From the NCBI RefSeq assembly GCF_903064525.1, contig NZ_LR797830.1, forward strand, positions 930,001-994,000: a stretch of DNA of 64,000 nucleotides, written 5' to 3'. Position 1 is the first letter of the stretch; the number at the start of each line of letters is the position of its first letter. Positions 2,914-60,920 of the stretch are shown here, one piece after another. Source of the stretch: Methylacidimicrobium sp. AP8. Lineage in GTDB: Bacteria; Verrucomicrobiota; Verrucomicrobiia; Methylacidiphilales; Methylacidiphilaceae. Position numbers and translations under genes: made by a program. The notes beneath the pieces are model-generated. The model was not told the origin of the DNA. It was given only the letters and a program-made list of their open reading frames with translations, and searched no databases.

Positions 2914-3579
2914 TCAGGGGCGCGTCGGCTGCGCCTCCTGGGAGAGGACCGGGGGAACCCGATTTGCCTGCTGGAAGAAGATGTAGGAGAGGATCAGGGA
3001 CATTTTATCCTCCCGGGCGATGCGGAGGTTCGGCGGGACCCGGAATGGGGTGCCGCTGGTGAAGAGCACTCGGACCTTTCCGCCGGCCAGCAGGAAGACA
3101 TGGACCAGCGGGGCCTTCGGGGGTGGAAGCCTTTCGTGAACGAGGATGTAGCTCCCGCTAAGGGAGTCGGTCCTGCCGACTAGCGCGTGGGTTCCTTTTC
3201 GATTCAGATGGTGCTCGATGGCTTTCCTCTGCGCATCGGACAGCGATTCGAGAAACTGCCGCAGCCCCCCGGTCGGATCAAATGGAGCTTCCTGACCGTT
3301 TCTCTGGGCGCCGCCGACGGCTGGCGCAGGCCTGGGCGCGGGGTCGCCGGCTTGGCCTATCTGCACCGGATGCAGGGGGGGTTCCGACGGAGCCCGTTCG
3401 GGTGCCGGGGCTTGGCCTTCCGCTGCCGGCAGTGGATATTCGGGGTCGGTTTGCGCCGCAATCGGGTCGGGACCCAGAAGGACGGCGAGAAGAAGGGGCA
3501 AGGCGACCAGCCATGACAGGTCGGTAAGACTCGTAGGCTCGTCATTTGCGAATCCATGTGCCGTCCGGCTCTTGTACAT
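2914..3579 (-). CDS. Unknown exported protein, last gene of the ydbH-like operon
   Basis: I do not recognise this 221-residue protein. It has a hydrophobic stretch near residues 22-41 (LSWLVALPLLLAVLLG) ending in IAAQ, which fits a signal peptide or anchor. A proline-rich segment follows (about residues 42-95), then a conserved-looking domain from FDPTGGLRQFL to the C-terminus, with ALVGRTDSLSGSYILVHERL and VHVFLLAGGKVRVLFTSG. The ATG at 3579 is preceded by GGGAGA and overlaps the end of the upstream fusion gene by 38 bp, so the three genes form one operon. A role in the same envelope process as the YdbH-like protein is inferred from position only. Confidence 0.6.
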   Translation of the reverse strand: MYKSRTAHGFANDEPTSLTDLSWLVALPLLLAVLLGPDPIAAQTDPEYPLPAAEGQAPAPERAPSEPPLHPVQIGQAGDPAPRPAPAVGGAQRNGQEAPFDPTGGLRQFLESLSDAQRKAIEHHLNRKGTHALVGRTDSLSGSYILVHERLPPPKAPLVHVFLLAGGKVRVLFTSGTPFRVPPNLRIAREDKMSLILSYIFFQQANRVPPVLSQEAQPTRP

Positions 3580-4027
3580 ATTCTCCCGGGAATGCGCGTC
3601 GGCTCCAGCTACGCGCATAGGCTTCCTGGATCTCTTCGAGGGGCTTGCCCTGTAATTTACTTTGGGCCATGTAGAGCTGCAAGCGGTCCCGGTTCTCATC
3701 CTGGACGACGCGCTCCGCGTACTGCTTGTACGCGGGGTCGGCCGGAGGATGGACGACGGCCAGGTATCCGTCGCGGTCTTCTCCGACGATGCCTGCGTTC
3801 TTCAACCCCTGGATCTCCCCGGAACGGAGCCGCCGGCGCTCCGCGACCTGCGGCGAGACGGGCGGGGCATGCGCGCTCTCCTTCTCGGTGACGACCACAT
3901 TCATGTGGACGTGGATTTTCACCGGTTCCGGAGTCGTGACGCGCACCGTCGGAGAGCACCCGAAAAGGACGATCGGAACGGCGGGAAGAAGCCAACCCTT
4001 AGGGGGAAATCGGTGGGTGCTCTCCAT
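3542..4027 (-). CDS. YnbE-YdbL fusion lipoprotein (DUF1318 C-terminal domain)
   Basis: Predicted outer-membrane lipoprotein of 161 residues. Residues 1-24 form a signal peptide with lipobox LFGC (Cys24). Residues 25-47 (SPTVRVTTPEPVKIHVHMNV) resemble the mature part of E. coli YnbE, a tiny lipoprotein. Residues 66-161 resemble YdbL (DUF1318), ending in RAFPGEYVQEPDGTWIRK, which matches the PGEYV...G.W.KK signature of that family. In E. coli these are separate genes acting with YdbH in trans-envelope lipid homeostasis; here they form one polypeptide. The ATG at 4027 has a GGAGG five bases upstream and overlaps the end of the YdbH-like gene by 29 bp. The fusion is read directly from one frame; the function is by homology. 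Confidence 0.8.
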   Translation of the reverse strand: MESTHRFPPKGWLLPAVPIVLFGCSPTVRVTTPEPVKIHVHMNVVVTEKESAHAPPVSPQVAERRRLRSGEIQGLKNAGIVGEDRDGYLAVVHPPADPAYKQYAERVVQDENRDRLQLYMAQSKLQGKPLEEIQEAYARSWSRRAFPGEYVQEPDGTWIRK

Positions 4028-5780
4028 TCGTGACCTCCGGCAACTGATCAGAATTCGGCTCCAGAGACAAGCCGCTTGCGATCGGCTTCCCCAAGCGGGG
4101 ATCTTGTTGCCAGCGGATCGTGAAGTTTCTCCTTCCTTCGGGCCCGCGCAATTCCAGCCGGAGGCGGCTCTCCGGGAGGGCGTAGGAAAGGGAAAGAAAG
4201 CCGACGTTGTAGGCATAGCTGCGGAGAGCACGGGCGAGCATCTCCATGAGCTGGCGCTTGGCCGGCGTCCAGTCGGCGGGAAGGTGTTGGAGGAAAGGAT
4301 CGATGTCCCGGATCTCCAGCTTTCCCGGACCGTCGAGCGTCAAAAAGCCAATCGCGCTCCGGAGGCTCGTTCCGCGCGCGTCGAGGCGGAGGCGGCCCTC
4401 CGCCGTGCCCGTGAGCAAGAGAGCGAAGCGATCGCTGGTGAACTGACGGGCGATCGGTTCGACCGGCACGCCGGTAAAGTGAATCCACCCGCTCCATGGG
4501 AACTCGTTCTGGAAGAGGATCGAAAACCCTCCGTTCCCCTGTCCTCCGTAGAGGTTTCCTCCGAAGTGGCCGAAGATCCCGCTGCTATTGAAGGTGACGT
4601 CGAGCCAGTCGTCGGTCGCCGTGATCCCCCGCCAGGATACCGAATCGAAGAAGATCGTATGGACGAGATTATTGGCCTTCCGTTCGCTCGCCGGCAGGTT
4701 GAAGGAGAGATGTCCGCGGCGCACTTCCAGCACGACATTGTAGGCCGGATACTCGATCCGCCCCGGCATGATCTCGATCTCGTTCCGAAGGCTTGCTTGC
4801 GACCAGTCGTTGAGCGGGACATCGTGAGCAGTCAGGCCGAAAAGGAACGGGAGGACAACTCCGGGCGCGCCGAAGGCGCTGATGAGGAACTGGCCGCCCC
4901 GAACGAGCACGTCGTCGGCGGTCCAGTATTCCAAGGTTTCTTCGCGGTGTTTCTTGCGCCGGATCTCCTCCTCCCTCCGGAACTGTTCCACATACCAGAA
5001 AAGATCGGGTCCGAGATAGAGGACCGGATTGAAAATGCCCAACTGCTCGACGCGGTGCTCCGAGAGCCCGCGCCAGGAAAACTTCACTCGGAGAGCGCCG
5101 ATCGTGAGGATCTTGGCAAGGGGGTCGTAGGGAGAATAGACCTCCACGTTCCGGGCGGTGGCGATGTTTAGCAGGCGATCGTCCCGGCTCAGTCCGGCGA
5201 TCGGGATGTCGTGGAGCTCGATGGGGTGGTCGTGAAAGCCAAGGGCCAGCGGGATCGGCGGCAGGTGGGGCGCCAAGCGGTCGATGTTGATCGTGGCCCG
5301 ACCCACCCGGACGGTGTCGATCCGGAGGCGGGGCTGCGGCAGAAGCTCGACCCACCGGTGAGGACGCCCTCCTGAGCTCGAGGCTCGCTCGAGAAAGGAG
5401 ATCAGGGCCGAGCTCCAGACCGTCGGCGAATCGATTCCTACGTAGGCCAGCCGTTGCCGTAGGAGGAGATCGTCCCACCGCCAGCCGACCTCGACACGGG
5501 GAATGGAGCCGACCTCCCCGAGCGAGACGTCGCGAAGGAGGAGGGAGTGCGGGGAGAGCCATTCGGCGGACGCCACGTCGAACGGAAGGTCGAGGGAGCG
5601 GGCGAGCCGGGTGAGAAGCAGGGCCGTATTGGCCCGGATCCGCCGGCCGACCCATGGCCCGACGGCGAAGAGCAGCGCCGCGAGTACGAGGGGTAGGGCG
5701 AGCGCCCAAACGGACCTCCGGAGAACCCGCTTCTTCCACGGAGGGCCGTGCGGCTGCGGCTCCGGTCCATCGTCCGTCAT
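3999..5780 (-). CDS. YdbH-like AsmA-family trans-envelope protein
   Basis: Predicted 593-residue protein anchored by one membrane helix (about residues 23-43) with a long periplasmic, beta-rich body typical of AsmA-like bridges that carry phospholipid between inner and outer membranes. YdbH assignment rests on size class, the anchor-plus-beta architecture and above all the next gene, a YnbE-YdbL fusion, which reproduces the order of the E. coli operon. E. coli YdbH is larger (about 880 residues), so this is a shorter relative. Clear motifs are few: LRDVSLGE and a C-terminal DLDPFLQ-like segment (IRDIDPFLQHLPADW) are visible. Divergent from bactofilin. Confidence 0.7.
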   Translation of the reverse strand: MTDDGPEPQPHGPPWKKRVLRRSVWALALPLVLAALLFAVGPWVGRRIRANTALLLTRLARSLDLPFDVASAEWLSPHSLLLRDVSLGEVGSIPRVEVGWRWDDLLLRQRLAYVGIDSPTVWSSALISFLERASSSGGRPHRWVELLPQPRLRIDTVRVGRATINIDRLAPHLPPIPLALGFHDHPIELHDIPIAGLSRDDRLLNIATARNVEVYSPYDPLAKILTIGALRVKFSWRGLSEHRVEQLGIFNPVLYLGPDLFWYVEQFRREEEIRRKKHREETLEYWTADDVLVRGGQFLISAFGAPGVVLPFLFGLTAHDVPLNDWSQASLRNEIEIMPGRIEYPAYNVVLEVRRGHLSFNLPASERKANNLVHTIFFDSVSWRGITATDDWLDVTFNSSGIFGHFGGNLYGGQGNGGFSILFQNEFPWSGWIHFTGVPVEPIARQFTSDRFALLLTGTAEGRLRLDARGTSLRSAIGFLTLDGPGKLEIRDIDPFLQHLPADWTPAKRQLMEMLARALRSYAYNVGFLSLSYALPESRLRLELRGPEGRRNFTIRWQQDPRLGKPIASGLSLEPNSDQLPEVTNGEHPPISP

Positions 5781-58509: not shown

Positions 58510-60920
58510 CTATAGGTTACGCGGCTTCCACTCCGGTGCGGTGAGCTTGCCGGAGCCATGATACTCGAAAAGCTTGCTGATCGGGAAGAGGACAACCCCC
58601 ATCGGCCCGCGAAGGTTGACCCGGGCGTCGGCTTCCAGATCGTCGCGGAGGAAATTGTAGCTCCCCTTACCGATGACCGTAAAGGCGACGCTCGCGATGG
58701 TGAACTGCTCGGTCGAGATCTCGCCGTTTCCGACGCGGAAGTGGGCGTGCGCCTTATCCGCCTTGGCCATGGCGAAATCGGGGATGACCGTGCTTATGGC
58801 GGTCGACAGCCCCCCCAAAAACGGGATGGAGAGAATGTAGCCGTGACGAACGTCAAAATCCCCTTCGCCGGTGAGCGAGGGGAGATTGCCCACGTAGCCG
58901 GAGAGGTCGAGATGAAATTGCAGCGGACCCGAGCATTTCTCGATGTGGTAGAGGTTTGCCATGACCTTATGGAAATCGGCGTGATCGAGATCGAAGATCG
59001 AATGAAAGGGGCACGGGGCGGGCGGGGGTTGAGGGTAACCTGGACGCTTCCATGAAGCGGGCCGTCGAAAAGGGACGCGCGGTCGACCTGGACGGTGAGC
59101 TCGCTCCGGCGCAGGAGGACCCTCCCTTTGGGCGCCACGACGGGGAAGTTGCGCCCGAAAAGGACGTAGTTGAGGATCGAATCAGAATCGACCTCGACCC
59201 GGAGGTTGGTAACCGGGTTCTTGCTCCCCTCGTTAAGATCGACGATGCCGCTCACCTGGAGTTTCGGCGGCTTTTCGAAGCGATAGGGCTCCACATATTT
59301 CGGGAACTTCTCTCCCAGCGCCGGAGCCGAAGCGATGACGTCGATCGAGGAGGAAAGGTCGTGGACGGTCACGATCTTGCGGGCAAAATCGTTGTCGAAA
59401 TTTGCCGAAACCGTCCCTTCGGGCCGCACCGCCACGAAGTGCGAGAACCGGAGGGTTTGGTCCCGATATTCGATGTCGGACTGGATGGAGCGGACGGAGA
59501 CTCCCTTATACGAGCAGTTCTTCGCCGAAAAGCTGCCGCGGGCTTTCCAGCTCGAGAGATCCAAGGGATTCAGGCTTAGGACCTCGCCCCGTGCCCGGGG
59601 AGGCTCCTTCGGGAAGGAGAGCGACTCCAAGAACCGGTCGGCTGCGGAACCGCCTAGGCCCAGGAAAACGGTCGGGTCGATGCTCGACTCCGCCTTGATG
59701 CGTAGCTTGGGCGGCGAGACTTCGTAAAGGATCTCCGCATCGACATTTCCTCCGGCGGAACGAAGCTTGGCCTCCGGAATGAAGAGCTTGAGCCCGTCGT
59801 AGGCCAGGGGGACGGAAAGCTCCTCGAAGGGATGACCCCGATAACGGAAGTGGTGCCAATGGAGATCGGTCGAAACGCGGAGGGAGCGTTCCGAGCCCCA
59901 CTTCGCCGTCAGCCGTCCGCTCAAGCTGGGGAGATCGAGGAAATGGAACTCTTGGACGACGGCGGCGATGCGGTCCGGAAGCGAAGGACGGAGGACGGTC
60001 GGATCGGCGTTGCTCAGGAATTCGACGAAGCCGGTCCGTTGCGTAAGGTCTGCCTCTCCCCAGAGGGAGATCTCCCCCCGCGGAAATCCGAGGCGGACCT
60101 CTTCCATGCGGAAGGTCCGGCCGGCCAGACGGAGATCCCCGGTAAGCCGTCCGAGGGGAATCTGCCGCCAGGAGATCGGGGAAGGGAGGATTCGGCACTG
60201 AATGCTCGCTTCCCAGGGGGCTTTCGTCGCCATCGAAAGCTCGACCTCCACAGGAATCGGCCGCTCGGTTTCGATTTCATCGACGACGGCCAGAATGCGG
60301 TGCCAGAGTTGATCGGCCGCTTGATACCCCTCGGGAGTGGCCGGCGGCAGCGAGGGGTATCCATTGAGGAGGATGCGTCCTTTGATCCGGAGCTCGAAAT
60401 TGAGGACCCGAGCGCTGGCGCTCAAGATTTCCAAGGCTCCCGGCACGAAGTTGACGCGAGCAGAGACTTGGGAGAGCTCTACTTCGCACTGCGGAGTAAT
60501 CGGAAGGCGGATCGTGGCGTTGTGCACCGATGCGTTCTTGATCCAGGGTGTGCCTTTCCACCAGGCGAGCCAAGCGACCGAAAGCCGGACGCGGTCGACC
60601 TGGAGCCAAACGTCCTGTCGATCCCGATTGCGGAAGATCGCCACCCGGCTGGCCACGAGATGACCGAAAGGGTCGAGGGATAGGTGCCCGACGGAAACGG
60701 GTATATCTCGCGCCTCCAGCTCCGCCAAAAGGACGTTTTTGATTTGCGTGGGGACTCCGTTGAATCGTAATAGGAGGAAGACGGCGACGAGCACGGCCCC
60801 CAGCAGCCCGACCGTGGCGAGGACAAAGTGGCTCGCGACTCGGGCAGCGAAACCGGAGAGTATCCGCAGGACGGAGGACCGGGAGGGGGGTAACTTCCTT
60901 GTCTTTGACCTTCGTGACAT
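58510..60920 (-). CDS. AsmA-like trans-envelope protein, single frameshift
   Basis: Large AsmA-family protein of about 800 residues: an inner-membrane anchor (HFVLATVGLLGAVLVAVFLL) and a beta-rich periplasmic body with SLDPFGHLVASRVAIF near the start, ending in the AsmA_2-like stretch GDFDVRHGYILSIPFLGGLS and LRDDLEADARVNLRGPMGVV. The reading frame changes near 59008-59028, inside C-runs on the coding strand: after NPRPPRAP the text continues as FHSIFDLDHADFHKVMANLY in another frame, down to the stop at 58510. One C too many explains it. It may be a sequencing error, a phase-variable tract or a recent mutation. Function, by family, is lipid transport between membranes. Confidence 0.7.

Follow-up and report, generated by a model that had tools for sequence, protein, structure and literature searches.

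A conserved YnbE-YdbL fusion lipoprotein encoded next to a ydbH-like gene in Methylacidimicrobium (Verrucomicrobiota)

The YdbH-YnbE-YdbL system is one of the routes that have been proposed for the delivery of phospholipids to the outer membrane. In 2024 Kumar, Davis and Ruiz reportedly found that YnbE extends the groove of YdbH by strand augmentation, and that YdbL, described as a periplasmic protein in Escherichia coli, is an anti-polymerization chaperone that is said to stop YnbE from stacking on itself. The role assigned to YdbL rests on few experiments in E. coli, and we know of no experiments on this system in any member of the Verrucomicrobiota. The name given to the PDB entry 28oj, 'Probable chaperone-like protein YdbL', agrees with a chaperone role. 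E. coli YdbH, an inner-membrane protein, acts jointly with YnbE, a lipoprotein of the outer membrane (PMC12977461; PMC11784454), and when extra ydbH-ynbE-ydbL is supplied to a tamB yhdP mutant, its defects are suppressed (PMC8593681).

In this work we analyzed a stretch of 64,000 nucleotides, referred to here as the window, which corresponds to positions 930001-994000 of the single-contig 2.30-Mb genome of a Methylacidimicrobium (Verrucomicrobiota, Methylacidiphilales). In this window a ydbH-like gene is followed by a single gene whose product joins a YnbE head to a YdbL domain. The parts are already known; the fused architecture is new relative to the literature searched, which excluded most subscription journals and in which no description of a fused YnbE-YdbL protein was found. 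We read the operon as encoding a YdbH-type lipid bridge between the inner and outer membranes with a self-chaperoned lipoprotein tip, a reading to which we assign a probability of roughly 0.7.

Organization of the locus

The genes lie on the minus strand in the order ydbH-like gene, fusion gene, third gene and a gene encoding ExbD, and the 5' end of the fusion gene overlaps the stop end of ydbH by 29 nt (Table 1). The mature lipoprotein starts at Cys24 with CSPTVRVTTPEPVKIHVHMNV, and its C-terminal end is PGEYVQEPDGTWIRK. The gene order, the overlap between ydbH and ynbE, and a lipobox followed by a head of the form CTPxxxxxxP..INMNV are shared with the E. coli operon, and the DUF1318 fold and the PGEYVQ...G.W.RK end are shared with E. 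coli YdbL. In contrast to E. coli, YnbE and YdbL are here a single lipoprotein, the YdbL part is presumably tethered to the membrane, and YdbH has 593 instead of 879 residues. The fused head also lacks the C-terminal part of YnbE, which reads EHEIxIKVDK...F in Proteobacteria and VDRALDDFFGDLD in the split genes of Verrucomicrobiota, and the linker and the DUF1318 domain stand in its place.

Table 1. Positions in the window of the operon genes and of the parts of the fusion protein
Feature	Positions	Strand	Basis or remark
ydbH-like gene, 593 aa	3999..5780	-	N-terminal TM anchor, AsmA-like beta-groove protein; translation and profile match
ynbE-ydbL fusion gene, 161-aa lipoprotein	3542..4027	-	Start ATG 4025-4027
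Type II signal peptide, residues 1-23, lipobox VLFG/C	3959..4027	-	Direct reading
YnbE head, residues 24-47 (CSPTVRVTTPEPVKIHVHMNVVVT)	3887..3958	-	Proteobacterial YnbE HMM, hhalign
Variable linker, residues 48-64	3836..3886	-	Low conservation; mostly unstructured in model
DUF1318/YdbL domain, residues 65-161	3545..3835	-	PF07027, phmmer, Foldseek, VIA-align
Third operon gene, up to 221 aa	2914..3579	-	tblastn conservation beside the fusion

An earlier note, made from the sequence alone, had described positions 2914-5780 as a ydbH-like gene followed by a YnbE-YdbL fusion gene. The genes and the strand are as it stated, and the lipobox cysteine, the motif and the C-terminal end that it quoted can all be read from the translation, but the first part of that span is the third gene, which lies outside the fusion. 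The host belongs to the Verrucomicrobiota, in line with the proposal of a YnbE-YdbL partnership outside Proteobacteria.

The product of the third gene has a hydrophobic N-terminus and a Pro-rich stretch. Using tblastn, it was found adjoining the fusion with 64-82% identity in Methylacidimicrobium and 33-36% in Methylacidiphilum, with nothing significant outside Methylacidiphilaceae, and it matches no Pfam family. It is probably accessory to the operon, and a family-specific partner of the bridge is a possible role for it.

In the YdbL half of the fusion, residues 71-161 match DUF1318 (PF07027) with 71.4 bits against a gathering cut-off of 27 (E 9.4e-20), and among solved structures the sequence search recovered a single relative, E. 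coli YdbL (28oj_A; phmmer E 1.2e-5). In the AlphaFold model of the fusion this half reaches a pLDDT of 94-98, and it superposes on 28oj with a Z of 14.1 and an rmsd of 1.3 over 86 residues using VIA-align, and with E 1.1e-5, a TM of 0.89 and an rmsd of 1.7 using Foldseek. The DUF1318/YdbL domain is complete in the fusion, and the DUF1318 body described in the earlier note is upheld.

Distribution and origin of the fusion

In a survey of 241 genomes drawn from the Verrucomicrobiota, DUF1318 was found in 93. Eighty DUF1318 loci, relatives included, were inspected upstream for a YnbE head, which is present in 78 of them, either within 900 bp or in the same frame; 33 are fused and 45 separate. The split loci keep the ydbH-ynbE-ydbL order of E. 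coli; those represented by L132, L133 and L174 share phylum, operon order and domains with the locus in the window and differ from it in having separate genes and a YnbE in which the strand is followed by the VDRALDDFFGDLD segment.

Fusions of the type found in the window occur in Methylacidiphilales and in families named Verrucomicrobiales, Akkermansiaceae and Verrucomicrobiaceae. They form one clade (support 99/97) of 19 rows that covers many families, and no reversion was observed inside it. Other fusions were found in families f21, f23, f26, f37, f38 and f41, most of them with a different type of head (KPIHITMDVNLKVDKEL). Those at loci L109, L112-L117, L156, L162 and L165-L167 also carry the YnbE head and DUF1318 in one frame; nonetheless, their heads, mostly of the KPIHITMDVNLKVDKEL type, keep a part after the strand, and in the tree their bodies are not placed within the window-type clade. 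A sequencing artefact was rejected given that the frame is intact in all six of the other genomes of the genus that were searched and in many families.

Several additional observations were made during the survey. An apparent triple fusion (G290, L109), in which DUF1318 lies in a 679-aa frame overlapping ydbH, was discarded as a spurious upstream frame, the gene being an ordinary 146-aa YnbE-YdbL fusion. Three sequences titled Bacteroidetes bacterium, Betaproteobacteria bacterium and Blastochloris sp. (L182, L186 and L188, respectively) carry a fusion of the Methylacidiphilales type, and their titles look mislabelled. Genomes G199 (L124) and G219 show one in-frame TGA near the end of the DUF1318 match, which may point to gene truncation or to another genetic code. 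A second DUF1318 fusion is present in the same genome outside the window (G000:C1:2242861-2243286; L095 5954-6508, plus strand), and also in Methylacidiphilum; it has a decayed head (CAPLYLHSPKPLLFDVDLDTEI) without YnbE score, its upstream neighbours encode a NUDIX protein and a CHASE2 protein, and no YdbH gene adjoins it. This gene may be a paralogue that departed from the YdbH system.

Families f21, f26, f37 and f38 contain split as well as fused members, and because both states coexist in them, repeated fusion within the phylum is likely, judging from the distribution of the genes. This argument is better than that of the gene tree: the best tree needs 3 changes and the starred branches force 2, but a single fused clade is not rejected by the AU test (p 0.166), and the idea of several independent fusions on the basis of the tree alone was dropped. 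A broader proposal, which we put forward tentatively and at less than even odds, is that the joining of YnbE and YdbL is convergent and arose several times in Verrucomicrobiota, that it would have converted a diffusible chaperone into a built-in polymerization stop, and that the tip would be a defined 1:1 (perhaps single-copy) unit and not a stack of YnbE copies as suggested for E. coli.

It could be argued instead that the fusion is real but neutral, i.e. that the loss of a stop codon joined adjacent, co-translated ynbE and ydbL genes while their mode of working stayed the same, and that cleavage of the chain in the periplasm may even yield free YdbL. The spacing of the split genes agrees with this idea, given that most of them are -20 to +30 nt apart and 13 of the 45 overlap by exactly 4 nt, so close that one indel can join them; the variable, mostly unstructured linker agrees as well. 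However, the well-supported window-type clade persists across many families with no reversion observed, and its members have lost the C-terminal segment of YnbE, so that the two halves cannot simply revert to the ancestral pair. We consider a neutral fusion unlikely.

The YdbH-like protein and the YnbE head

The 593-residue protein has no Pfam match when analyzed alone, and PF11739 finds nothing in the genome that contains the window, a divergence that counts against the bridge reading; in one relative PF11739 gives an E of 0.0096. When a profile made from 13 homologues of the window YdbH (A1) was compared by hhalign with a profile of PF11739-type YdbH (A2, 20 of 22 rows matching PF11739), a probability of 98% was obtained (E 1.1e-13) over 212 C-terminal columns equivalent to residues 614-830 of E. 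coli YdbH, the similarity lying in the C-terminal third. The ydbH context that had been claimed for the gene directly upstream of the fusion holds. For the Methylacidiphilum homologue, the model consists mainly of beta structure; besides YdbL, its best match is the TamB of TamAB (9xdd_B; E 4.2e-4, prob 0.99), with a TM of only 0.31.

The system might work with YdbH on a cargo other than phospholipids, for instance hopanoids or other lipids of the group, and a YdbH that is both short and divergent would fit this possibility. No direct evidence speaks for such a cargo, and the groove architecture in the model resembles that of TamB; we regard it as improbable. One ydbH-type gene is present in the genome. 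Neither TamB nor YhdP is detectable in it, for which reason the YdbH-fusion system may be a main lipid bridge of the organism. The other AsmA-type matches in the genome are two, both weak: a second AsmA/DUF748-like protein encoded in the window (58794-60920, minus strand; PF05359, E 1.4e-7, N-terminal part only) and G000:C1:1456563-1456961.

When run against the window genome and 20 fused relatives, the Pfam model of YnbE (PF13617, 34 positions) gave no significant match, and of 80 genomes from the phylum not one passed its gathering cut-off; the upstream survey found plain or fused ynbE in most of these genomes, and therefore it is the model that fails for Verrucomicrobiota. In contrast, a profile (A3) built from fused heads within the order aligns from the Cys with a profile of six proteobacterial YnbE proteins (A9) with 94% and E 1.4e-7 in hhalign. 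The window head alone scores 14.9 bits against the A9 HMM (E 5e-4 at Z=499). For comparison, mature E. coli YnbE starts with CTPRIEVAAPKEPITINMNV, and those of Pseudomonas and Photobacterium begin with CTPTVQ. On the basis of profile and context we class the head as a YnbE homologue and not as a member of PF13617; the identity given to it in the earlier note is upheld by the proteobacterial profile, which recovers the head that the Pfam family misses. The absence of a significant YnbE match, which the earlier note had named as grounds for refuting its reading, thus applies in form only, to the Pfam model.

The failure of PF13617 could also suggest that the head is a generic lipoprotein anchor, which would bring a YdbL-like protein to the outer membrane without any YnbE function; this is very improbable and was rejected, given that when 499 distinct lipobox-like mature starts from all the loci gathered were ranked with the A9 HMM, YnbE-type heads, fused and split alike, took roughly the first hundred places, and the first unrelated start appeared at rank 105 with 1.6 bits, and that the conservation sits after the Cys and not within the signal peptide.

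In six congeners the fusion keeps both its length and its frame, with 77-80% identity, and its closest named relatives are those of Methylacidimicrobium tartarophylax and M. cyclopophantes (80%), which places the genome in this genus. Within the genus, the head and the DUF1318 domain are both 88% identical, whereas the signal peptide shows 72% identity and the linker, where conservation within the mature protein is lowest, 69%. The dN/dS (from medians within the genus) is about 0.16 for the head as against about 0.54 for the signal peptide. Signal and linker drift, but conservation of the head equals that of the DUF1318 domain, and the head is therefore a selected YnbE segment under purifying selection.

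Proposed function of the fused tip

In the lipid bridge that we propose, Cys24 would anchor the fusion in the outer membrane, and a strand segment of approximately 22 residues from YnbE (CxPTVxVxTPEPVKIxVxMxV) would dock at the C-terminal end of the YdbH beta-groove, which is open, and would complete the path for phospholipids. The YdbL domain, held on a flexible linker, would keep this strand from stacking on other copies, as proposed for the free YdbL of E. coli. The covalent link would provide one chaperone per tip and would dispense with the C-terminal segment of YnbE. A fixed stoichiometry at the YdbH tip, as the earlier note had argued, is a reasonable inference.

Structure prediction did not reveal the beta-strand augmentation that the earlier note had suggested to look for. 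In the model of the fusion alone (alignment of 20 rows) the head has a pLDDT of about 50-75 over residues 21-60 and forms no strand. To model YdbH and the fusion in one chain we took advantage of a Methylacidiphilum locus where both genes share a reading frame and are separated by a single TAA, which was read as Gly as a modelling device; in this read-through chain (26 rows, four of them spanning both proteins) the head has a pLDDT of about 26, forms no strand and is undocked. AlphaFold thus pairs the head with neither YdbH nor the DUF1318 domain, but given that both alignments are shallow this is weak evidence against docking, and we take the models neither to support nor to refute it.

The fusion acquires more meaning from the chaperone role proposed for E. 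coli YdbL, namely to limit the polymerization of YnbE. A conserved natural fusion represents independent evidence, from another phylum, for YdbL acting directly on YnbE. It also shows which part of YnbE is dispensable, namely the C-terminal segment, and which is indispensable, the Cys and the TPEPVKIxVxM strand. The fusion is a ready-made 1:1 construct for structural work and for deciding between a polymeric and a single-unit tip, and the apparent lack of TamB and YhdP would make this organism a simpler test case than E. coli.
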